Source: Mycobacterium sp. 3519A
GTDB lineage: Bacteria; Actinomycetota; Actinomycetes; Mycobacteriales; Mycobacteriaceae
Length of the DNA: 64,000 nucleotides
Assembly (NCBI RefSeq): GCF_900240945.1
Contig: NZ_OESG01000013.1
Span: forward strand, 1,178,001 to 1,242,000
Direction of reading: 5' to 3'
The first letter of the stretch is position 1. Each line of letters begins with the position of its first letter. This document shows, one piece after another, positions 54,552 to 64,000 of this stretch. The notes beneath the pieces were generated by a model. That model saw only the letters and a program-made list of their open reading frames with translations. It had not been told where the DNA came from and made no database searches. A program made the position numbers and the translations under genes.

Positions 54552-54929
54552 CTACTCCAGCAGCGGGGCGATCTCTGCTGGGTCGAAGTACTCGTCGATC
54601 CGACTGATCAAACCGTCGTCGCCCACCTTGATCACGATGCAGACCCGCATCGAGATCAATCCGCCGGTGTGGCCGCGGGCGTGCAGGATGTGCTGCTGGA
54701 CGAAACCGCCCTCGAAGAACTTGCGCTCGAGAATTTCGTAGCGGCGCTCGGTCGTCGCGCCGACGAACCAGTCGATGACCCGCAGCGCCCGAGCTTTGTC
54801 GCGCTCGCGGTCAGCCACCTTCCACACGACGACGTCGGGCGCCCAAAGCTGCTCCACCGCGGCGATGTCACCGTTCTGGATGGCGCCGAACAACCGGTCG
54901 GCGACGTCGGCAATCGTTTCGGCAATCAT
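54552..54929 (-). CDS. SnoaL/NTF2-like protein
   Basis: A 125-residue small cone-shaped fold protein, similar in layout to limonene-epoxide-hydrolase/SnoaL proteins: an N-terminal helix pair (DRLFGAIQNGDIAAVEQLWAP, quoted as AIQNGDIAAVEQLWAP), strand WKVADRERDK, and the C-terminal ISRIDEYFDPAEIAPLL. The family binds small hydrophobic ligands or catalyses hydration or isomerisation; the activity here is unknown. It precedes yceI on one transcript and is divergent from the methyltransferase. Confidence 0.78.
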   Translation of the reverse strand: MIAETIADVADRLFGAIQNGDIAAVEQLWAPDVVVWKVADRERDKARALRVIDWFVGATTERRYEILERKFFEGGFVQQHILHARGHTGGLISMRVCIVIKVGDDGLISRIDEYFDPAEIAPLLE

Positions 54930-55671: not shown

Positions 55672-56277
55672 CTAAGCCGGTGACCGGCCGAGGTGCGCCA
55701 GTGCCCGGTCGAGGTCGCTGAGCCCGTCGGCGACCTCGACGGCCGGAGCGAACGGCGAGCCCGGCGTGGTACGGAAGTCGCCGTCGGGAACTGCGAAAAC
55801 CATCGGCAGAACAGCCGCGATCACGTCATCGGGCAGCGTGAACGGCACCCCGATCGTGCGCGCCACATCCCAACCGTGCGCGACGTAGTCGACGAAGTGG
55901 AAGCCGATCGCTTGAGCGCCGGGGAACACGGCGCCCGGCCCGAACTCAGGAAGAGCGAACGAGCCCGTCAGTACACCGTCGTCGGCGAAGGCGTCGAGGA
56001 CGGCGGCCGCGGCGGTGGCGTAGGTGGCTGCCGGATCGGCAGCCACGGCGTCGGCCACCGTACCGGCGTCCCACTGAGCGAGGTCAGCGCCGTCACCGCG
56101 GGCGGCCGCTGCGAATCCGCGGTGCTGCACGGTCATGTGTGCCAACAACTGGCCCAGGTCCCAGCCGGCACACGGTGTGGGGCGCTGCAAATCCGTGGAG
56201 GCGACGTTGTTTACGACGTCGACAGAGGCCAGGACCGCAGTTCGGTGCAACGCGCGAATATCGCTATCAATAAGCAT
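55672..56277 (-). CDS. DinB-like metal-binding protein (maleylpyruvate isomerase type)
   Basis: A 201-residue four-helix protein of the TIGR03086-like group. Probable metal-binding His residues are in PCAGWDLGQLLAHM and FHFVDYVAHGWDVARTIG. Related actinobacterial proteins include mycothiol-dependent maleylpyruvate isomerase, suggesting a mycothiol S-transferase role. It is divergent from a MarR gene, and its first codons lie within a strong inverted repeat, so MarR probably represses it. Confidence 0.8.
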   Translation of the reverse strand: MLIDSDIRALHRTAVLASVDVVNNVASTDLQRPTPCAGWDLGQLLAHMTVQHRGFAAAARGDGADLAQWDAGTVADAVAADPAATYATAAAAVLDAFADDGVLTGSFALPEFGPGAVFPGAQAIGFHFVDYVAHGWDVARTIGVPFTLPDDVIAAVLPMVFAVPDGDFRTTPGSPFAPAVEVADGLSDLDRALAHLGRSPA

Positions 56278-56328: not shown

Positions 56329-56760
56329 GTGACCCCCAGGCGCAAGCGACCCGACCTCGCCGCCATGCTCGCGCCGCTGGTCCGGGACATGATGGCTGCC
56401 GAACTGCCGGTGCTCGCGGAAAACGGCCTGTCGATGTGGGGTTACAGCGTGCTGGTCGCACTCGACCGGTCGTCGATACGCACCCAGGCGGCGCTCGCGG
56501 AGGCGATCGGCGCGGACAAGACTCGCATCATCGCCGTCCTCGACGAACTCCAGGAGAAGGGACTGATCGAGCGTGTCCCTGATCCGGACGATCGGCGGGT
56601 GCGCTTACTGGCCATCACCGAAGCCGGGCGCAGAGTGAAAAACCGTACGCAGACGGCGATTCAACGCGGGGAGGAGCGGTGGCTCGGCACGCTGTCGCCA
56701 AGCGATCGCACCACGTTCCTGCGCGTGCTTCAGGAGCTGTCGGGCGTCGACTGGTCGTAA
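56329..56760 (+). CDS. MarR-family transcriptional regulator
   Basis: A 143-residue winged-helix regulator. The recognition region is TQAALAEAIGADKTRIIAVL followed by the wing VPDPDDRRVRLLAITEAGRR. MarR proteins typically repress a neighbouring detoxification gene and release DNA on binding a phenolic or oxidant. GTG start; no clear Shine-Dalgarno, so it may be leaderless. It overlaps the converging DUF6285-like gene by 31 nt. Confidence 0.88.
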   Translation: MTPRRKRPDLAAMLAPLVRDMMAAELPVLAENGLSMWGYSVLVALDRSSIRTQAALAEAIGADKTRIIAVLDELQEKGLIERVPDPDDRRVRLLAITEAGRRVKNRTQTAIQRGEERWLGTLSPSDRTTFLRVLQELSGVDWS

Positions 56761-57083
56761 CCCGGATGGGCGACGGCCAACCGGTGACGGATCAGGCTGC
56801 GCAGGACGGGCAGCACCTCGCCGGTCCGGTCGTCCAATGACCCGGCGCGGATGGCCGCCGCCAGAGCGGGCTCGTCGGCGAAGCCGAGGGCGGCCAGCGC
56901 CTTGGTGACCTCGGCGGCAGAGTCGTCGGTCAGTTCGCGCTCGACGATGCGCAGCACGTTGGCGGCGACGCGGGCGTGGAAGTTGACCTGTCCGTCGATG
57001 TTGGACCGGACGTCGTTGTCGAGGAAGTCGGCGACCGCGGCGACCAGTTCGGCCGCGGTGGGCCGTCCGTAGAGCCAGTTCAC
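56730..57083 (-). CDS. Small DUF6285-like protein, LvaB-type partner
   Basis: A 117-residue helical protein (NWLYGRPTAAELVAAVADFL, then NFHARVAANVLRIVEREL). Proteins of this size and pattern regularly follow APH-fold kinases in acyl-CoA gene clusters; in Pseudomonas levulinate metabolism the equivalent LvaB is needed for LvaA kinase function. The GTG overlaps the kinase stop as GTGA, so the stoichiometry is probably coupled. It is the last gene of the operon. Confidence 0.72.
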   Translation of the reverse strand: MNWLYGRPTAAELVAAVADFLDNDVRSNIDGQVNFHARVAANVLRIVERELTDDSAAEVTKALAALGFADEPALAAAIRAGSLDDRTGEVLPVLRSLIRHRLAVAHPGYDQSTPDSS

Positions 57084-58027
57084 TTCGCCTCCAACAGGTC
57101 GAGCACATCCCACTCGGTTTCGGCGACGCGGCGGCCGATCGCCGCCAGTTCCACCGACGGCGTCTGCCCCGACAGGTGCCGCTCTGCCTGGAACCGGCAG
57201 ATGACGCCCCAGCTCAGCGTGGCGGCGACCAGCCACCAGCGGAAGGCGTCGCGATCAAGCGCGACACCGGCCGCCGCCTCGTACGCGGACAGGAACGCCT
57301 CGACGCTGCCCAGCCCGCCCGCGCCGAGCGACTCGGGCGCGCCGAACCGCCATGCCCGGATGCAGAACCACGCGAGATCCTCGTACACCTCGCCGGTGTG
57401 CACCAGTTCCCAATCCAGCACGGCGGCGAGCCCATCGCCGTCGACGATCAGGTTGCCCATCCGGAAGTCCCCGTGCACGAGAACTCTCTGCGACGGCGGC
57501 CGCCGGTGGCGGTCCAGCCAGCGGAACGCCCATTCGAATGTCGCTGTGGTATCGCCCATTTCGTCGAGGCGCTGCCGCCACCCGGCCAGCTGGTCGGCCT
57601 CGGCCAGCCCAATGCCGTCGGGGTCGGCGCGGTGAATCGCGGCGAGGGCCTCGGCGCACTGCCGCAGCAGTCGCGCCCGGCCCGCGTCGTCGAGGCTGCG
57701 GTGGATTTTCCTGACGATCGTCTCGCCTGCGATCGCGTCGCAGATGAGATACGGATTACCCAGTGCGGCAACCGAATTGTCGGCGGCCAGGATGTGGGGG
57801 ACGGGTGCGCCGGCCGCGGCCGCGCGCTGTTGCACCGCGGCCTCCAACTCCATGCCGGCGTGCACGTCATCGGGTGGCCCGGTCCGCAGGATCAACGGGC
57901 GGCGTTGATCGCCGACGGCGTCGAACGCCCATGTGGTGCGGCTGGCACCGCCGGTCAGCGCGCGCAGGTTCTCGACGCTGACATCGCCGAGCACCGGTCG
58001 CAGCACCGCCGCCAGCTGATCTCTCAC
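57080..58027 (-). CDS. APH-fold acyl-CoA kinase, LvaA-like
   Basis: A 315-residue APH-fold kinase. It has the N-lobe LTGGASRTTWAFDAV, the intact catalytic loop VLVHGDFRMGNLIV and metal motif AVLDWELVHTG. Together with an acyl-CoA dehydrogenase upstream and a DUF6285-like protein downstream it matches LvaA, which phosphorylates the 4-hydroxyl of 4-hydroxyacyl-CoA; the fused mammalian forms are ACAD10 and ACAD11. Substrate is inferred from this gene set. The GTG start overlaps the dehydrogenase stop (GTGA). Confidence 0.82.
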   Translation of the reverse strand: MRDQLAAVLRPVLGDVSVENLRALTGGASRTTWAFDAVGDQRRPLILRTGPPDDVHAGMELEAAVQQRAAAAGAPVPHILAADNSVAALGNPYLICDAIAGETIVRKIHRSLDDAGRARLLRQCAEALAAIHRADPDGIGLAEADQLAGWRQRLDEMGDTTATFEWAFRWLDRHRRPPSQRVLVHGDFRMGNLIVDGDGLAAVLDWELVHTGEVYEDLAWFCIRAWRFGAPESLGAGGLGSVEAFLSAYEAAAGVALDRDAFRWWLVAATLSWGVICRFQAERHLSGQTPSVELAAIGRRVAETEWDVLDLLEAK

Positions 58028-59262
58028 TTGCGCCCGAACCCGAAGAGCCGCTGGGCCACCCGACGGATCTGGATCTCCTCGGCGCCTTCGGTGATGCGGT
58101 AGCGCCGGTGGTGCCGGTAGATGTGTTCGAACGGTTCGTGTCTGCTGTAGCCGACGCCCCCGAACACCTGCATGGCCCGGTCGGCGGCCTCACAGACCAG
58201 CCGGTTGGCCCGGTAGTTGGCCATCGACACCTTGTCGGAGACCTCCATGTGGTGATTGGCGTCGAGTTGGGTTGCCGCGTAATACACCAACAGCCGCACC
58301 ATCTGGGCTTCGGTCTGCAGTTCGACGAGCGGCCATTGCACGGCCTGGTTGACCGAGAGCGGCTTGCCGAACACCGATCGGTCGTTGGCGTAGCCGACGG
58401 CGCGGTCGATGCAGTACTGCGCGGCGCCGAGGCTGCTGGCGGCCTGCCGGATCCGGTTCTCGTGCAGGAAGGTCTGGCCGACCTCCAGGCCGCGGTCGAC
58501 TTCGCCGAGTACCGCGTCGCCTGCCACGCGGACGTCGGTCAGTTCCACTTCGCCGTGGTCGGTCGGCATGTTGAACGTCCACCAGTAGTACGGCACCGTG
58601 AAGCCGGGGCTGTCGGTGGGCACGAGGAACGCGGTGATGCCACGGGCCTGACCTGGCTCACCGGAGGTGCGCGCGAACACCAGATCGTGCGTCGCCCGGT
58701 GGACACCGGTGTTGAACCGCTTGGCGCCGTTGATCACCCACTCGTCGCCGTCGAGGACGGCGTGGGTTTCCAGCCAGGTCGCGTCCGATCCGTGGTTCGG
58801 TTCGGTCAGCCCGAACGCCATCGACCGCTCACCGGTGATCAGCGCCTCGGTCCATTCCGCCTTCTGCGCCTCGGTACCGAACCGGTCCATCATGATCACC
58901 TGCGGGAAGTTCCCGACGATCGAGGACTCGTCCTGCAGGTCGTTGTGCAGTCCGAGGCCCTTGTGCGCCAGGTGTTCCCGGATCACCGCCATGTCGATGT
59001 TGGTGCCGTCGCGGCCGCCGAACCGCGACGGCAGCCCGTAGCGCAACCAACCCGCCTTGTCTGCCCGCTTGCGCATCTCGCCGAGCAGGTCCTCCCATTC
59101 CCGTCGCGGGATGCCGCCGTTGTCCCAGTCGGTGCGGGCATGCTCGCGGCGCTGGTCGAAGTACTGGATGTGCTCACGCTCCAGCGGTTTGATCTCGGCC
59201 TCGATGAACGCGTCCATCTCGGCAAGCAACCCCGGAAGGTGCTCTGGTAGGGCGAAATCCAC
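58024..59262 (-). CDS. Acyl-CoA dehydrogenase family protein, LvaC-like
   Basis: A 412-residue FAD acyl-CoA dehydrogenase. FAD-binding AFGLTEPNHGSDATWLET and the C-terminal YRITEGAEEIQIRRVAQ with the likely catalytic Glu392 are present. In LvaC and ACAD11-type proteins this fold eliminates phosphate from 4-phosphoacyl-CoA to form an enoyl-CoA instead of simple dehydrogenation. Whether it does so here depends on its kinase partner. The GTG start has GAGGAG upstream. Confidence 0.85.
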   Translation of the reverse strand: MDFALPEHLPGLLAEMDAFIEAEIKPLEREHIQYFDQRREHARTDWDNGGIPRREWEDLLGEMRKRADKAGWLRYGLPSRFGGRDGTNIDMAVIREHLAHKGLGLHNDLQDESSIVGNFPQVIMMDRFGTEAQKAEWTEALITGERSMAFGLTEPNHGSDATWLETHAVLDGDEWVINGAKRFNTGVHRATHDLVFARTSGEPGQARGITAFLVPTDSPGFTVPYYWWTFNMPTDHGEVELTDVRVAGDAVLGEVDRGLEVGQTFLHENRIRQAASSLGAAQYCIDRAVGYANDRSVFGKPLSVNQAVQWPLVELQTEAQMVRLLVYYAATQLDANHHMEVSDKVSMANYRANRLVCEAADRAMQVFGGVGYSRHEPFEHIYRHHRRYRITEGAEEIQIRRVAQRLFGFGRK

Positions 59263-59280
59263 GGTGATTCTCCTCTGTTG

Positions 59281-59892
59281 TCAGAACCCGTACAACGTCT
59301 TCTTCCAAATCCTCGCCAGTGTGGCGACGGCGTCCTCGTCGGTGATCTCCAACCCAAGGCCAGGGGTGCCGACGAAGACGGTGGTGAAGTTCTCGAACAG
59401 CAGCGCGATCGCGGCGGCGGTGTGTTCGGGGACGAGTTCGGCCCCGTAGCCCTGCTCCTGAGCGCGCCGCACCGACGCGGCCACGATGTCGATCCCGAAG
59501 CGGCGAAATTCATTCTGCACAGCGGCGAATCGCGGCTGAGTGGCGGCAAGTTGAGCGACGGCGATCATTACGCCGATGTTCTGCTTGAAGATGGTCCAGT
59601 AGCCGGTCACGACGGAGGTGAAGAACGCGTCGTCGTCGGGGGAGTCGGGCAGATCGAGATCCACCCCCAGTGGCGCGACGGTGTCGTGCAGGAACGACTC
59701 GGCCAGCGCGGCGAGCAGATCCTCCTTGTCGCCGAAGTAGCGGTAGAACACGGCGGGCGACTTGCCCGCCGCCGACGTGATGTCGGCCAGCGTTGTGCCG
59801 TGAAACCCACGCTCGGCAAACAGCTTCCGCGCCGCCTGCTCGATGGCGTCCCGGGTTTGGCGACCCTTGGCGCTCAGGGCTTCGACGGGCAC
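59281..59892 (-). CDS. TetR-family regulator inside the catabolic operon
   Basis: A 203-residue TetR protein with the HTH around residues 15-60 (AERGFHGTTLADITSAAG, KSPAVFYRYFGDKEDLLAAL) and a helical ligand domain (GYWTIFKQNIGVMIAVAQLA). The GTG start is one base after the lyase stop (TAG-C-GTG). Being embedded in the operon, it probably senses a CoA-ester intermediate and controls the whole unit. Confidence 0.86.
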   Translation of the reverse strand: MPVEALSAKGRQTRDAIEQAARKLFAERGFHGTTLADITSAAGKSPAVFYRYFGDKEDLLAALAESFLHDTVAPLGVDLDLPDSPDDDAFFTSVVTGYWTIFKQNIGVMIAVAQLAATQPRFAAVQNEFRRFGIDIVAASVRRAQEQGYGAELVPEHTAAAIALLFENFTTVFVGTPGLGLEITDEDAVATLARIWKKTLYGF

Positions 59893-59893
59893 G

Positions 59894-60802
59894 CTAGCCG
59901 CCGAGGATGCGGTCGCCCGCGCGCAGCAGCGAACTCGGCAGGTCGTGGCCGACCACGCGTTGTGCCACCTCGGCGGCGGCGATCGCGGCCTGCAGGTCGA
60001 CGTCGACGTGAATGCCGCTGTCCCGCAACAGGTACACCAGGTCTTCGGTGGCGATGTTGCCGCTGGCGCCGGGGGCGAACGGGCAACCGCCGAGGCCGCC
60101 GACCGAGGCGTCCAGTCGGGTGACGCCCGCGCTGACCGCCGCGTAGGCGCTGGCAAGTCCAGCGCCGCGGGTGTTGTGGAAGTGTGCGCCGAGCGGAATA
60201 TGGCCGATTCGCGGTCGGATTCGCTCGATCAGGTCGACGACCCGCCGCGGGGTGGTGGTGCCGATGGTGTCGGCGATCGCGAGCCTGTCGGCACCGGCGT
60301 CGCACGCCGCGCTGATCACGTCGACCACGCGCTCGGCCGGGGTGGGCCCGTCGAACGGGCAGTCCCACGCCGTGGCGATGATGACCTCGACCGACGCCCC
60401 GCTGTCGTGGGCGATCGCGAGGATCTCCGGAATCTGTGCGGTGGCTTCGGCCGTGGACCGGCCGACGTTGGCGCGGCTGTGGCCGTCGGCGGCCGACACC
60501 ACGTATTCGATCGAGCCCAGGCCCGCCGCGATCGCACGCTTGGCGCCGTTGGGGCTGGCGACCAGCGCCGAGAACTCGATGCCGGGAAACGACGGTAGTT
60601 CCGCTGCCAGTTCCGCGGCGTCGGCCAGCGCGGGCACCTTCGACGGTGACACGAACGCCGTCGCCTCCATCTCCCGAACTCCCGTGGCGGCGACCGCCGC
60701 GAGCAGTTCGAGCTTCGCGGACAACGGAATCGGCGCCTCGATCTGCAGGCCGTCGCGCATCGACACGTCGCGGATGTCGACGGCCTCAGGTAATCCCGTC
60801 AC
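59894..60802 (-). CDS. HMG-CoA lyase-like aldolase
   Basis: A 302-residue TIM-barrel lyase of the HMGL family, which cleaves 3-hydroxy-3-methylacyl-CoA to acetyl-CoA and a ketone or keto acid. Active-site parts are VSMRDGLQIE (Arg16, Asp17), AHFHNTRG (metal His207 and His209) and GGLGGCPFAPGASGN with the catalytic Cys240. All key residues are kept. The GTG start overlaps the CoA-transferase stop (GTGA). In leucine catabolism the substrate is HMG-CoA; in this operon it may be a pathway-specific 3-hydroxyacyl-CoA. Confidence 0.9.
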   Translation of the reverse strand: MTGLPEAVDIRDVSMRDGLQIEAPIPLSAKLELLAAVAATGVREMEATAFVSPSKVPALADAAELAAELPSFPGIEFSALVASPNGAKRAIAAGLGSIEYVVSAADGHSRANVGRSTAEATAQIPEILAIAHDSGASVEVIIATAWDCPFDGPTPAERVVDVISAACDAGADRLAIADTIGTTTPRRVVDLIERIRPRIGHIPLGAHFHNTRGAGLASAYAAVSAGVTRLDASVGGLGGCPFAPGASGNIATEDLVYLLRDSGIHVDVDLQAAIAAAEVAQRVVGHDLPSSLLRAGDRILGG

Positions 60803-62001
60803 AGCACACCCTTTCCTCGCAGCGTCTCCAGTTCCTCCGCGGTCTTGCCGAGCAGGCCCTGATAGATCTCGTCGTTGTGCTGTCCCGGGCTGGCCGGGCC
60901 AGCGTTGCGGATGGTTCCCGGGGTCTGCGACAGCACCGGCACGACGCCGGGGCCCTTGACGTTTCGCCCGATCCGGTCGTCCCAGTGGTCGGCGATCATG
61001 CCGCGGGCATTCAGCTGCGGATCGTTGACCACCTCGGCGACGGTGTTGATCGGGCCGCTGATCACACCGGCGTCGCTGAGCGTGGCGATGATGTCGGCCG
61101 GCTGGCGCTGCGCGGCCCACGCGCCGATGATCTTGTCCAGCTCGTCCTGATTGCGGCCCCTGGCAACGTGATTGGCGAACCGCTCGTCGGTCGCCAGCTC
61201 CGGTTGGTCCATCGCGGCGCACAGCCTGCGGAACACCGTGTCCTGGTTGGCGGCGATCACCACCCAACTGCCGTCGGCCGTCGGGTAGATGTTCGACGGT
61301 GCGATGCCCTCCAACCGGGTGCCCGACGGGCCGCGCACCACACCGCCGACGTCATAGTCGGGAATCGTGGATTCCTGTACCGCCAAACATGATTCGGTCA
61401 GCGCCGCGTCGACGATCTGACCTTCACCGGACACCGTGCGGCGATACAGCGCCGCCAGCGCACCCTGCGCGGCGAACATCCCGGCCAGGCTGTCGCCCAG
61501 TGACAGGGCCAACCGGGGGGGAGGGCCGCCGGGGAAACCGTTCATGTGCCTCAGCCCGCTCGCCGCCTCGGCGACGGACGCATAGCCGGCCTTGTGCGCC
61601 TCGGGTCCGGTCTGACCGTAGCCGGACACGCGGACCAGGATGATGCCCCGATTGCGTTCGCGCAGCACGTCGTAACCGAGGTTCCACTTCTCCAGCGTGC
61701 CGGGCCGGAAGTTCTCCACGATGATGTCGGAGCGTTCGACGAGGTCGAGGAACAGCGCGCGACCCGCCTCCTCGCGGAGGTTCAGCGTGACGGCTTTCTT
61801 GTTGCGGGCGTGCACGGTCCAGAAGAAGTGATGACCGTCCAGTTCGGCCTGACCCCAGGTGCGCAGCGGGTCGGGCGCCCCCGGCGGTTCGATCTTGATG
61901 ACTTCGGCACCCATGTCGCCGAGCAGCCGGCCCGCGAAGGGCCCGGAGATCAGCGTGCCGACCTCGATGACCCGAATGCCGTCCAGCGGGCCGACTGTCA
62001 T
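60799..62001 (-). CDS. Family III (CaiB/BaiF) CoA-transferase
   Basis: A 400-residue family III CoA-transferase. It begins GPLDGIRVIEVGTLISGPF, has the catalytic Asp170 in LSLGDSLAGM, and lacks the Frc-type GGGQPGW loop. It differs clearly from the two Frc homologues in this window. Donor and acceptor are unknown; related enzymes act on succinate, glutarate and citramalate-type acids. Placed before the lyase gene and overlapping its neighbours by 4 nt on both sides, it probably activates the organic acid that the lyase or dehydrogenase uses. Confidence 0.87.
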   Translation of the reverse strand: MTVGPLDGIRVIEVGTLISGPFAGRLLGDMGAEVIKIEPPGAPDPLRTWGQAELDGHHFFWTVHARNKKAVTLNLREEAGRALFLDLVERSDIIVENFRPGTLEKWNLGYDVLRERNRGIILVRVSGYGQTGPEAHKAGYASVAEAASGLRHMNGFPGGPPPRLALSLGDSLAGMFAAQGALAALYRRTVSGEGQIVDAALTESCLAVQESTIPDYDVGGVVRGPSGTRLEGIAPSNIYPTADGSWVVIAANQDTVFRRLCAAMDQPELATDERFANHVARGRNQDELDKIIGAWAAQRQPADIIATLSDAGVISGPINTVAEVVNDPQLNARGMIADHWDDRIGRNVKGPGVVPVLSQTPGTIRNAGPASPGQHNDEIYQGLLGKTAEELETLRGKGVL

Positions 62002-63182
62002 AGCGAGAATCCGTGCCGGTGCAGCCAGTCCGTGCAGATGCCGACCGCCTCGCGCAGCGTGTCGCGCTGGCCCGGGCCGGAGTAGTAGTGGTTGGCGCGG
62101 TGTATTTCGTGCATTTCCTTATCAGGATGCCCGATGGCGTCGAAGATGCGGCGGGTGTGGCTGGGTGTGCACGCGTTGTCGGCCAGGTTGCCGATCACCA
62201 GCGTGGGCACGTCGATGCCCGGGCCGGCCTTGACGGCGTCGCCGTTGGCGTCGTCGTAACTCCACTGCGACAGCCAGCTGCGCAGCGTGCAGAACCGGGC
62301 GAGGCCGAACGGTCCCATGTTGACCACCTGCGGGTCGCCCAGGTAGGTGCTGCGCGGTTCGCGCTCGTTCGGGTCGACGGTGGGATCCAGCCAGCGGGGG
62401 TCTGCCATCGTGCCGTGCACGACGAAGGCGAACTCGTCATCGGGGCGCCCAGCGGCCTTCAGCTCAGCGAGCTTGTCCTTGACCCACTTGGTGATTCGCC
62501 GGTTGCGCGCCACCTGAGCGGCCCGGTAGCGCTGCAGGAATTCCTCGGTATAGGGCGGCTGATTGGGGTTGTCCGGGTTGTACAGGTCGAGTTCCGGATC
62601 CCGCTTGGACGGGTCCGACTCGTCGAGGATGGACGCGTCCAGCCATTCGGTCAGTGTGCCGTGGCGGCTGATGTGCGCGGCCAGCATCATGATGCCGTCG
62701 GCGGGGATCAGGCCCAGTTTGGTCAGGTCGGGACCGTCGCCGGACGGGCTTGCGGTCACCGTCGGATAGGTGGCCTGCTGTTGGTAGAACGCCGACAGCG
62801 AACCGCCGCCACTCCAGCCGGCCAGCACCACCTTCTGATAGCCCAGCCGGTTCTTGGCGTCCTTGATGCATTCGCCGAGATCCTCGACGACCTTCTCCAT
62901 CAGCAGCGCGGAGTCCGTGCCCCGGAACCGGCTGTTGCAGTAGATGACGTGATGGCCCGCGCGGGCCAGCGCGTTGATCATCGGCAGGTACGCCCCGCCC
63001 CCGATGGGGTGCATGAACACCAGCACCGTGTCCGACGGCTTGATCTTCGGCTTGAGCAGATAGCTCTCGAGGACGATCAGCTCGGAGACGCCGCCGTAGA
63101 CATCCCGGACACCCGAAAGATTCTGGTACGCAATCAAATACGGGATACGGTCATATTCGTACTTCACGACCGTGGACGTCAT
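61998..63182 (-). CDS. Alpha/beta hydrolase (esterase-like)
   Basis: A 394-residue alpha/beta hydrolase. The nucleophile elbow is LAGWSGGGSLSAF with Ser124, the oxyanion region is VFMHPIGGGAYLP, the acid is probably in LVIGNLADNACTP, and the His is in HRANHYYSGPGQR. A large cap insert (about residues 150-300) suggests a bulky or specific substrate. It overlaps both neighbours by 4 nt, and may hydrolyse an ester or lactone that feeds the CoA-transferase. Confidence 0.83.
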   Translation of the reverse strand: MTSTVVKYEYDRIPYLIAYQNLSGVRDVYGGVSELIVLESYLLKPKIKPSDTVLVFMHPIGGGAYLPMINALARAGHHVIYCNSRFRGTDSALLMEKVVEDLGECIKDAKNRLGYQKVVLAGWSGGGSLSAFYQQQATYPTVTASPSGDGPDLTKLGLIPADGIMMLAAHISRHGTLTEWLDASILDESDPSKRDPELDLYNPDNPNQPPYTEEFLQRYRAAQVARNRRITKWVKDKLAELKAAGRPDDEFAFVVHGTMADPRWLDPTVDPNEREPRSTYLGDPQVVNMGPFGLARFCTLRSWLSQWSYDDANGDAVKAGPGIDVPTLVIGNLADNACTPSHTRRIFDAIGHPDKEMHEIHRANHYYSGPGQRDTLREAVGICTDWLHRHGFSL

Positions 63183-64000
63183 GAGTGCTGCCCAAGGTCG
63201 TTGGCGAGGATGTCGGCCGACGGCACCAGCCTGCGCCGGGTGTCCACCGCGATCACCGACCAGTCCACCGAGTCGTACTCGTCGAATTTGCGGCGTGCAC
63301 GCTCGCGAGCCTTCTCCGGCGCGCCGTGGTGAACCCCTTGCGGGGCATGGGAAATGAGTCCGGGCGGCATCGGTATTCCGTACAGCGAACCGCCGTGGAA
63401 GAACGCGATCTCGTCATAGTCGACGTTGCGGTGATACCAGGGTGTGCGCTCGGTTCCCGGCACGCCCTCGGCCGGTTTGGGCAGGAAGTTCATCACATAC
63501 ACGCCGGTCGCCTGCATGAACAGATGCACGGTGGGCGGTAGGTGCACGCTGTCGGACGTCACCACGTTGTAGTCGTCGATGTTGAACGTGAACGCGAAGT
63601 TGTCGCCGCGCCACCCTTCGACGTCGAGCGGATGATGTTGGTAGAACAGCGAAGTCGGCCCGCCGTCATGGATCAGCCGCACCTCGTACTGGTCGCGGCC
63701 GTCGTCGTCTATGGGCGCGGGCTCGGGGATGGTCGCCTGCGACGGGTCGAACGGGAAGTGTCGTCCCAGATAGCCCGGCGGCGGCACCCGGAACTCGTCG
63801 GTGGCCTGGATCATCAACAGCGTGGACTCTTCGTCGGGGACTTGCCGGAACGTGCACGCCTTGGGGATGTAGACCCAATCGCCTTGGCGATAGCGCAGCG
63901 GACCGAACTCGGTCTCCAGAAGACCGGAGCCGCGGTGGACGAAGCTGAGCAGATCGCCGTCGACGTAGCGGACGAAGAACGGCATCGCCTCGCTGCGCCG
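63179..64000 (-). CDS. Homogentisate 1,2-dioxygenase-like cupin protein, 5' end outside window
   Basis: At least 274 residues of a bicupin ring-cleaving dioxygenase-like protein; the frame is open through the window end, so the N-terminus is missing. Seen are FVHRGSGLLETEFGPLRYRQ in the first cupin, then YHRNVDYDE and HAPQGVHHGAPEKA, which supply likely Fe(II) ligands (His, Glu, His). True homogentisate dioxygenase has His-x5-Glu; here the Glu is one residue further, so exact function is not certain. No fumarylacetoacetate hydrolase or maleylacetoacetate isomerase is adjacent. Confidence 0.75.
   Translation of the reverse strand, partial: RRSEAMPFFVRYVDGDLLSFVHRGSGLLETEFGPLRYRQGDWVYIPKACTFRQVPDEESTLLMIQATDEFRVPPPGYLGRHFPFDPSQATIPEPAPIDDDGRDQYEVRLIHDGGPTSLFYQHHPLDVEGWRGDNFAFTFNIDDYNVVTSDSVHLPPTVHLFMQATGVYVMNFLPKPAEGVPGTERTPWYHRNVDYDEIAFFHGGSLYGIPMPPGLISHAPQGVHHGAPEKARERARRKFDEYDSVDWSVIAVDTRRRLVPSADILANDLGQHS

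Follow-up and report, generated by a model that had tools for sequence, protein, structure and literature searches.

Homogentisate 1,2-dioxygenase (HmgA) cleaves a ring with an acetate side chain, and cleavage followed by hydrolysis yields fumarate and acetoacetate. In the lva route, levulinate is activated, reduced to 4-hydroxyvaleryl-coenzyme A (CoA), phosphorylated by LvaA together with LvaB and converted by LvaC (PMC6692424; PMC9399607); PMC6692424 also gives a P. citronellolis cluster without lvaB. LvaC and the mammalian acyl-CoA dehydrogenases (ACADs) ACAD10 and ACAD11 share an active-site signature consisting of a catalytic Asp (D753) and of R626, H634 and R637, which hold the phosphate (numbering of mouse ACAD11, here and below; PMC12440821), and PMC11342911 concurs on the catalytic Asp. 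Here we analyze an operon of Mycobacterium sp. 3519A in which a relative of HmgA and a kinase-DUF6285-ACAD module are encoded together. The operon lies in a 64,000-nucleotide stretch (“the window”; contig NZ_OESG01000013.1, G000:C13:1178001-1242000) of the 7.3-Mb genome.

A first-pass annotation of the window had described eight minus-strand genes with 4-nt overlaps or gaps of at most 18 nt, and had interpreted them as an LvaABC-like trio fed by a hydrolase that opens a lactone or another organic acid. All eight genes and the families assigned to them were confirmed by Pfam and curated-family scans, and the gene boundaries (five 4-nt overlaps, a 1-nt gap between the TetR and lyase genes and an 18-nt gap between the ACAD and TetR genes) agree with that description. 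We propose, at roughly even odds (probability about 0.5), that the operon degrades a para-hydroquinone with an acid side chain by way of ring cleavage and the kinase-DUF6285-dehydrogenase module.

Putative ring-cleavage genes and conservation of the operon

The first gene of the operon (63179..64000, minus strand) encodes a cupin that matches the homogentisate-dioxygenase N-terminal family (PF20510) and is cut by the window edge; in the stretch fetched around the operon from the same genome (L002), its likely ATG lies beyond that edge, at 64273. When 29 relatives of this protein were combined into a profile, the PDB yielded three distinct sequences, all of them homogentisate 1,2-dioxygenases (best E-value 8.4e-29). 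H286, E293 and H321, which we take to be the iron or metal ligands, align with the metal ligands of homogentisate dioxygenase and are invariant in 29/29 rows, and H249, at the base-His position, is conserved in at least 90% of the same alignment (numbers follow a 369-aa reading; 5 has to be subtracted for the ATG at 64273). Judged by its sequence, the cupin is a homogentisate-dioxygenase relative with retained metal-site residues. Because of this kinship ring cleavage, and not the lactone opening assumed before, is the likely entry step of the operon, and an aromatic hydroquinone is a more likely substrate than a lactone.

The protein differs from HmgA in length (about 365 aa), in its low identity (28-33%) to three rows that are presumably the usual actinobacterial HmgA (L188, L194, L231), and in its partner, an alpha/beta hydrolase instead of fumarylacetoacetate hydrolase (FAH). 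These differences bear on the explanation that the operon degrades homogentisate itself, with the alpha/beta hydrolase replacing FAH. The genome holds a single match to this dioxygenase and six FAH-fold matches elsewhere, both of which would fit such a role; on the other side, the dioxygenase scores far below the hmgA equivalog cut-off (45.9 versus 510.75 bits, only the in-window part being scored), no 4-hydroxyphenylpyruvate dioxygenase over the cut-off was found in the genome (best 38.2 versus 277 bits), and the products of homogentisate need no kinase, ACAD or lyase arm. The single dioxygenase match and the lack of a 4-hydroxyphenylpyruvate dioxygenase over the cut-off make the usual tyrosine-homogentisate route unlikely. 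That route was dropped on the latter result and the hmgA score, and we regard homogentisate as highly improbable as the operon's substrate. A 49% relative of the dioxygenase is encoded on a Mycobacterium avium plasmid (L199) amid two cytochrome P450s, ferredoxins, a mycofactocin-coupled short-chain dehydrogenase/reductase (SDR) and a CoA-transferase.

The alpha/beta hydrolase (61998..63182, minus strand; PF00561/PF12146) has a GWSGG nucleophile elbow, and its S124, D335 and H365 are invariant in 49 rows. It had no PDB sequence relative at an E-value of 0.01, and its weak matches in the curated-family scan were to enol-lactonases and a lactonase. Its predicted structure (predicted local distance difference test score, pLDDT, 82.5) found generic alpha/beta hydrolases alone among the 50 matches listed (query template-modelling score at most 0.49), so that a C-C hydrolase and a lactonase cannot be told apart. 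The weak lactonase matches, and a gene set and gene order that are as the first-pass annotation described them, favor its route, in which the hydrolase opens a lactone or organic acid, the CoA-transferase activates the product, a true LvaABC trio isomerizes it and the lyase cleaves it. This route is nevertheless very unlikely: the ACAD fails the LvaC signature (see below), and the route has no use for the homogentisate-dioxygenase relative encoded first among the eight genes, whose link to the hydrolase extends across genera.

The next two genes encode a family III CoA-transferase (60799..62001, minus strand; PF02515, 404.7 bits), with succinate-hydroxymethylglutarate CoA-transferase 9br7 as best PDB match, and an HMG-CoA-lyase-like enzyme (HMGL; 59894..60802, minus strand), which exceeds the cut-off of its curated subfamily (NF004283, 271.3 versus 246 bits). 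RDG, HxH and GGCP...SGN, which we assume to be the catalytic motifs, are retained when the enzyme is aligned with human HMG-CoA lyase 2cw6, in line with the complete set of catalytic residues noted at first pass. The two enzymes thus have the HMG-CoA lyase and succinate-hydroxymethylglutarate CoA-transferase pair as nearest solved relatives and differ from it in being encoded alongside putative ring-cleavage genes and the genes of a kinase module. A TetR regulator (59281..59892, minus strand; PF00440; GTG start at 59892) separates the HMGL gene from the ACAD gene.

The conservation of the operon was examined in the 80 mycobacterial loci that ranked highest among 265 in kinase similarity, a set biased to close kin. 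Genes of the relatives were called by a simple script based on reading frame and third-position GC content, and neighbors without a family call are tentative. All eight genes are collinear on one strand within 10 kb in 76/80 loci, and in the other four (L049, L068, L072, L077) genes are missing where the contig ends. The eight-gene order, whose conservation the first-pass annotation had left as a question, is therefore conserved across mycobacteria, and the kinase-DUF6285-ACAD trio stays with the lyase and the CoA-transferase. A fairer count for the genus, restricted to hydrolase and ACAD, comes from 249 genomes of the order, where the ACAD was found in 29/29 and the hydrolase in 28/29 congeneric genomes (own included); in 28/28 congeneric genomes with both, the two genes share contig and strand at a distance of 2.7-4.4 kb. 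The operon appears to consist of two separable halves, since seven of the 80 loci (L050, L051, L052, L057, L060, L065, L071) have extra sequence between the HMGL and TetR genes (starts more than 1.5 kb apart). The insert of L050 holds a methyltransferase of the mycolic-acid-cyclopropane-synthase family.

On its upstream side the operon is longer than the eight genes first described. In the L002 stretch of the own genome it continues on the same strand with a deazaflavin-dependent nitroreductase-family gene (64337-64726, minus strand) and an HsaA-like flavin hydroxylase gene (64738-65904, minus strand), both in window numbering but beyond the window. By the distance rule of the script, the HsaA-like gene was counted in 44/80 loci and the deazaflavin-type gene in 42/80; in 66/80 the sequence reaches 2.3 kb or more beyond the dioxygenase gene on that side. 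A quinone-reductase-like gene takes the upstream position in 11 loci (one was scanned; its subfamily score was under the cut-off), and in a sister genus (L172) an HsaA-like gene (66%) and the dioxygenase gene lie on opposite strands, about 7 kb apart.

An acyl-CoA dehydrogenase outside the LvaC type and its kinase partner

The ACAD (58024..59262, minus strand) departs from the signature shared by LvaC, ACAD10 and ACAD11. It has Glu at the D753 column, Phe at R626, Gln at H634 and Ser at R637, keeping R631, which is common to ACADs (columns F/R/Q/S/E). Phe, Gln and Glu recur in 33/33 rows of this Glu type and Ser at the R637 column in 31/33. Asp is present in 31/31 LvaC-type rows, 21 of which were chosen by the motif RIHHCMR and not by the Asp; two rows are the same protein. 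Judged from these alignment columns the window ACAD is a separate type and not LvaC, because both the catalytic Asp and the phosphate clamp differ. As regards the LvaABC label, the intact kinase next to the ACAD (4-nt gene overlap) stands, and the ACAD10/11-type active site, whose absence the first-pass annotation itself had named as counting against its label, is lacking. The operon thus shares with mammalian ACAD10/ACAD11 the combination of kinase and ACAD for 4-hydroxyacyl-CoA, whereas the catalytic Asp and R626/H634/R637 described for these enzymes (PMC12440821) are absent from the window ACAD.

These residues favor an alternative in which the ring-cleavage pathway operates as proposed, with the Glu-type ACAD acting as an ordinary dehydrogenase, the kinase having a different substrate, and any 4-phospho elimination being carried out in trans by the separate LvaC-type ACAD of the genome. 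The own genome does encode an LvaC-type ACAD with RIHHCMR and the Asp elsewhere (G000:C14:669389), the same motif occurs in the three other congeneric genomes examined, and in a PDB search the window ACAD is closer to the common acyl-CoA dehydrogenase 5ol2_C (7.5e-47) than to ACAD11 8v3u_A (8.1e-33). What speaks against an ordinary ACAD is the pattern of ACAD partners on the kinase tree, as if the two types were interchangeable, and the ACADs of five genomes in other genera (below). Taken together, this alternative is a tenable one to which we give somewhat less than even odds.

Seven loci outside the genus have a full-length hydrolase match of at least 64% (that of G520 is partial). In five of them (G306, G318, G322, G327, G335) the dioxygenase (66-69%) and the hydrolase (64-68%) accompany an ACAD of the LvaC type (R/R/H/R/D) and a single open reading frame (ORF) that joins the APH-fold kinase to DUF6285; this fusion was confirmed by Pfam in 3/3 tested, and none of the five frames is interrupted. 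The LvaC-type ACAD directly follows the hydrolase in four, while in G322 (L223) a thiolase and other catabolic genes lie between. Proteins encoded at G322 include a 48% CoA-transferase relative and, by Pfam, thiolase, gluconolactonase-like, luciferase-like and SnoaL-like proteins, and further ORFs resemble by eye a ligase, SDRs and an enoyl-CoA hydratase. None of these five belongs to the 50 genomes that match the window-type ACAD at an E-value of 1e-120 (the same number of the order's genomes being searched), which argues against an ordinary Glu-type ACAD working beside a separate LvaC type. The remaining two of the seven (G050, G367) encode a window-type ACAD, kinase and DUF6285 elsewhere in the genome. 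The ring-cleavage pair thus recurs with kinase, DUF6285 and an ACAD of exchanged lineage. This speaks for a single pathway that two ACAD lineages may serve, but mycobacteria also encode an LvaC-type ACAD, which could act in trans.

The kinase (57080..58027, minus strand; PF01636) overlaps the ACAD gene by 4 nt and keeps HGDxxxxN (HGDFRMGN) and LDWE, so that the intact HGD reported at first pass holds. It is followed by the DUF6285 protein (56730..57083, minus strand; 117 aa; PF19802, 87.4 bits versus a cut-off of 28.1). In a search of the phylum DUF6285 was found in 21/198 genomes, and besides the window's own locus a window-like kinase (34-87%) was present in the short stretch examined in 22 of 23 DUF6285 loci, the exception, L105, being a match under the cut-off. 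As the five operons above show, other genera encode the kinase and DUF6285 as a single fused ORF, and open frames joining the two occur beside window-type ACADs too (5/6 checked). Such kinases lie beside LvaC-type ACADs in L162, L170 and Thermus, and beside window-type ACADs in mycobacteria, L166, L169, Nocardia and Sulfitobacter; the ACAD of a Variovorax trio is of a third kind.

A tree of 52 kinase rows places the DUF6285-linked kinases on one side of a supported (starred) branch and six LvaA-type rows, some of them fragments, with three haloarchaeal rows on the other. The window kinase is therefore set apart from the LvaA-type kinases sampled, contrary to its earlier assignment. The ACAD partner is known for 32 of the DUF6285-linked rows and is of the Glu type in 23 and of the LvaC type in 9. 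Between the two types this label changes three times, at least two changes being forced by starred branches, as if the types were interchangeable. The labels also cluster far more than in shuffles (0/500 as low), so that exchanges of ACAD type have been rare. The column beside the alphaC Glu, at which our motif reading places R86 of the ACAD11 kinase, a residue implicated in CoA binding, is Leu in the window kinase. Arg occupies it in the three LvaA-type rows with a residue there, in 5/9 kinases beside LvaC-type ACADs and in 5/23 beside Glu-type ACADs; on this recount the groups are not separated, and the arginine was dropped as evidence against kinship with LvaA.

The window-type ACAD is not confined to mycobacteria, as it occurs at 59-65% in Nocardia, Sulfitobacter, a Rhodobacteraceae plasmid and haloarchaea (next plasmid match 37.5%). 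Outside the genus, kinase and DUF6285 are both in the fetched stretch of 15/22 loci with a window-type ACAD (contig edge in 1/22). Among the plasmid loci opened the kinase adjoins the ACAD in 6/8 and DUF6285 was found in two; L208 and L210 gave no kinase match above 60 bits. A haloarchaeal protein of 157-159 aa beside the kinase had no Pfam family in 3/3 tested. On three haloarchaeal plasmids (L204, L205, L211) the Glu-type ACAD and kinase lie beside hydantoinase/oxoprolinase-type carboxylase genes. L204 and L205 also have an annotated acetoacetate decarboxylase family gene, and L204 an acetone carboxylase gamma gene. Such surroundings hint that the ACAD and kinase have a ketone-related role there. 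Among the mycobacterial copies of the Glu-type ACAD, one (G469:C12:71453-72685) reads with a single internal stop.

A candidate route for hydroquinones with acid side chains

In the proposed pathway the HsaA-like hydroxylase, or the quinone reductase in another lineage, would supply the hydroquinone, and ring opening by the dioxygenase would take place beside the side chain, as it does in homogentisate. The hydrolase would then split the resulting beta-diketone into a C4 diacid and a methyl-ketone acid whose length is set by the side chain. With a propanoate side chain, one carbon longer than that of homogentisate, the products would be fumarate or maleate and levulinate (4-oxopentanoate). The lva route starts from levulinate, and a propanoate side chain would therefore explain a kinase module after ring cleavage. 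The kinase-DUF6285 pair and the dehydrogenase would act, as in that route, on the CoA ester of the 4-oxo or 4-hydroxy acid, and the diacid would go to the CoA-transferase and lyase arm. These two enzymes would finish a hydroxylated, probably methyl-branched acid (for example citramalate or hydroxymethylglutarate) derived from a methylated ring. Tocopherol-, thymol- and coumarin-derived substrates were weighed as chemistry only. In a literature search with most subscription journals outside its scope, no tocopherol or thymohydroquinone/carvacrol pathway and no hydroquinone- or levulinate-linked pathway of this kind was among the matches listed, nor was anything found on the joint gene set or on DUF6285.

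Compared with the lva operon of P. putida (LvaA-LvaB-LvaC), the mycobacterial operon likewise has adjacent genes for an APH-fold kinase, a small putative partner and an ACAD, and the related operons of other genera encode an ACAD that shows the complete LvaC/ACAD11 signature. It differs in the Glu and the missing Arg/His/Arg clamp of its ACAD, in a kinase apart from the LvaA-type kinases sampled, in its link to ring cleavage, CoA-transferase and lyase, and in having no LvaD or LvaE. By its ACAD the operon is not a member of the LvaABC group, yet it likely works in a similar way. The five genomes with an LvaC-type ACAD and a kinase-DUF6285 fusion keep the idea of an Lva-like function alive as an inference.

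Several observations, beginning with the missing phosphate clamp of the Glu-type ACAD, weigh against this proposal. No LvaD- or LvaE-type gene was found among the ten genes read, and no LvaD-like reductase or hydratase in the mycobacterial operon. One mycobacterial genome (G150) keeps ACAD, kinase and DUF6285 with no hydrolase or dioxygenase match, which indicates a use for the trio apart from these two enzymes. Outside the genus, 6/22 loci with a window-type ACAD have neither kinase nor DUF6285 in the fetched stretch, and in haloarchaea the ACAD-kinase pair lies beside acetone-carboxylase-type genes with no ring cleavage seen. The more distant dioxygenase relatives (29-45%) have the hydrolase nearby in only 1/21 fetched loci, and weaker hydrolase relatives (41-55%; L228, L229, L231) come with no kinase match. 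Finally, the dioxygenase model built from 41 close mycobacterial rows was poor (mean pLDDT 54.8) and was left unused. The further step, that hydroquinone cleavage feeds a levulinate-type module in which the Glu-base, clampless mycobacterial ACAD would have replaced the phospho-eliminating dehydrogenase as a second catalytic solution to that step, is speculative, and we consider it doubtful.

Flanking genes and implications

Just downstream of the operon, a protein with a mycothiol-maleylpyruvate-isomerase N-domain (55672-56277, minus strand) is encoded divergently from a MarR regulator (56329-56760, plus strand), each of them clustered in 5/81 loci including L002. A SnoaL-like protein gene further downstream (54552-54929, minus strand) is clustered in 60/81 loci, and its product has 33% identity to the SnoaL-like protein inside the G322 dioxygenase cluster. 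At about 12-20 kb of the loci L003-L082, genes resembling the respiratory complex I (nuo) operon were seen by eye downstream of the operon in up to 69 loci.

If the proposal is true, mycobacteria would have a widespread additional pathway for the catabolism of hydroquinones that bear acid side chains, and DUF6285 would gain a role as a kinase partner. The operon would also offer a natural setting in which to ask whether a 4-phosphate can still be removed by an ACAD that lacks the ACAD10/11 phosphate clamp and, with two ACAD lineages in otherwise matching operons, this question would be directly testable with purified proteins.

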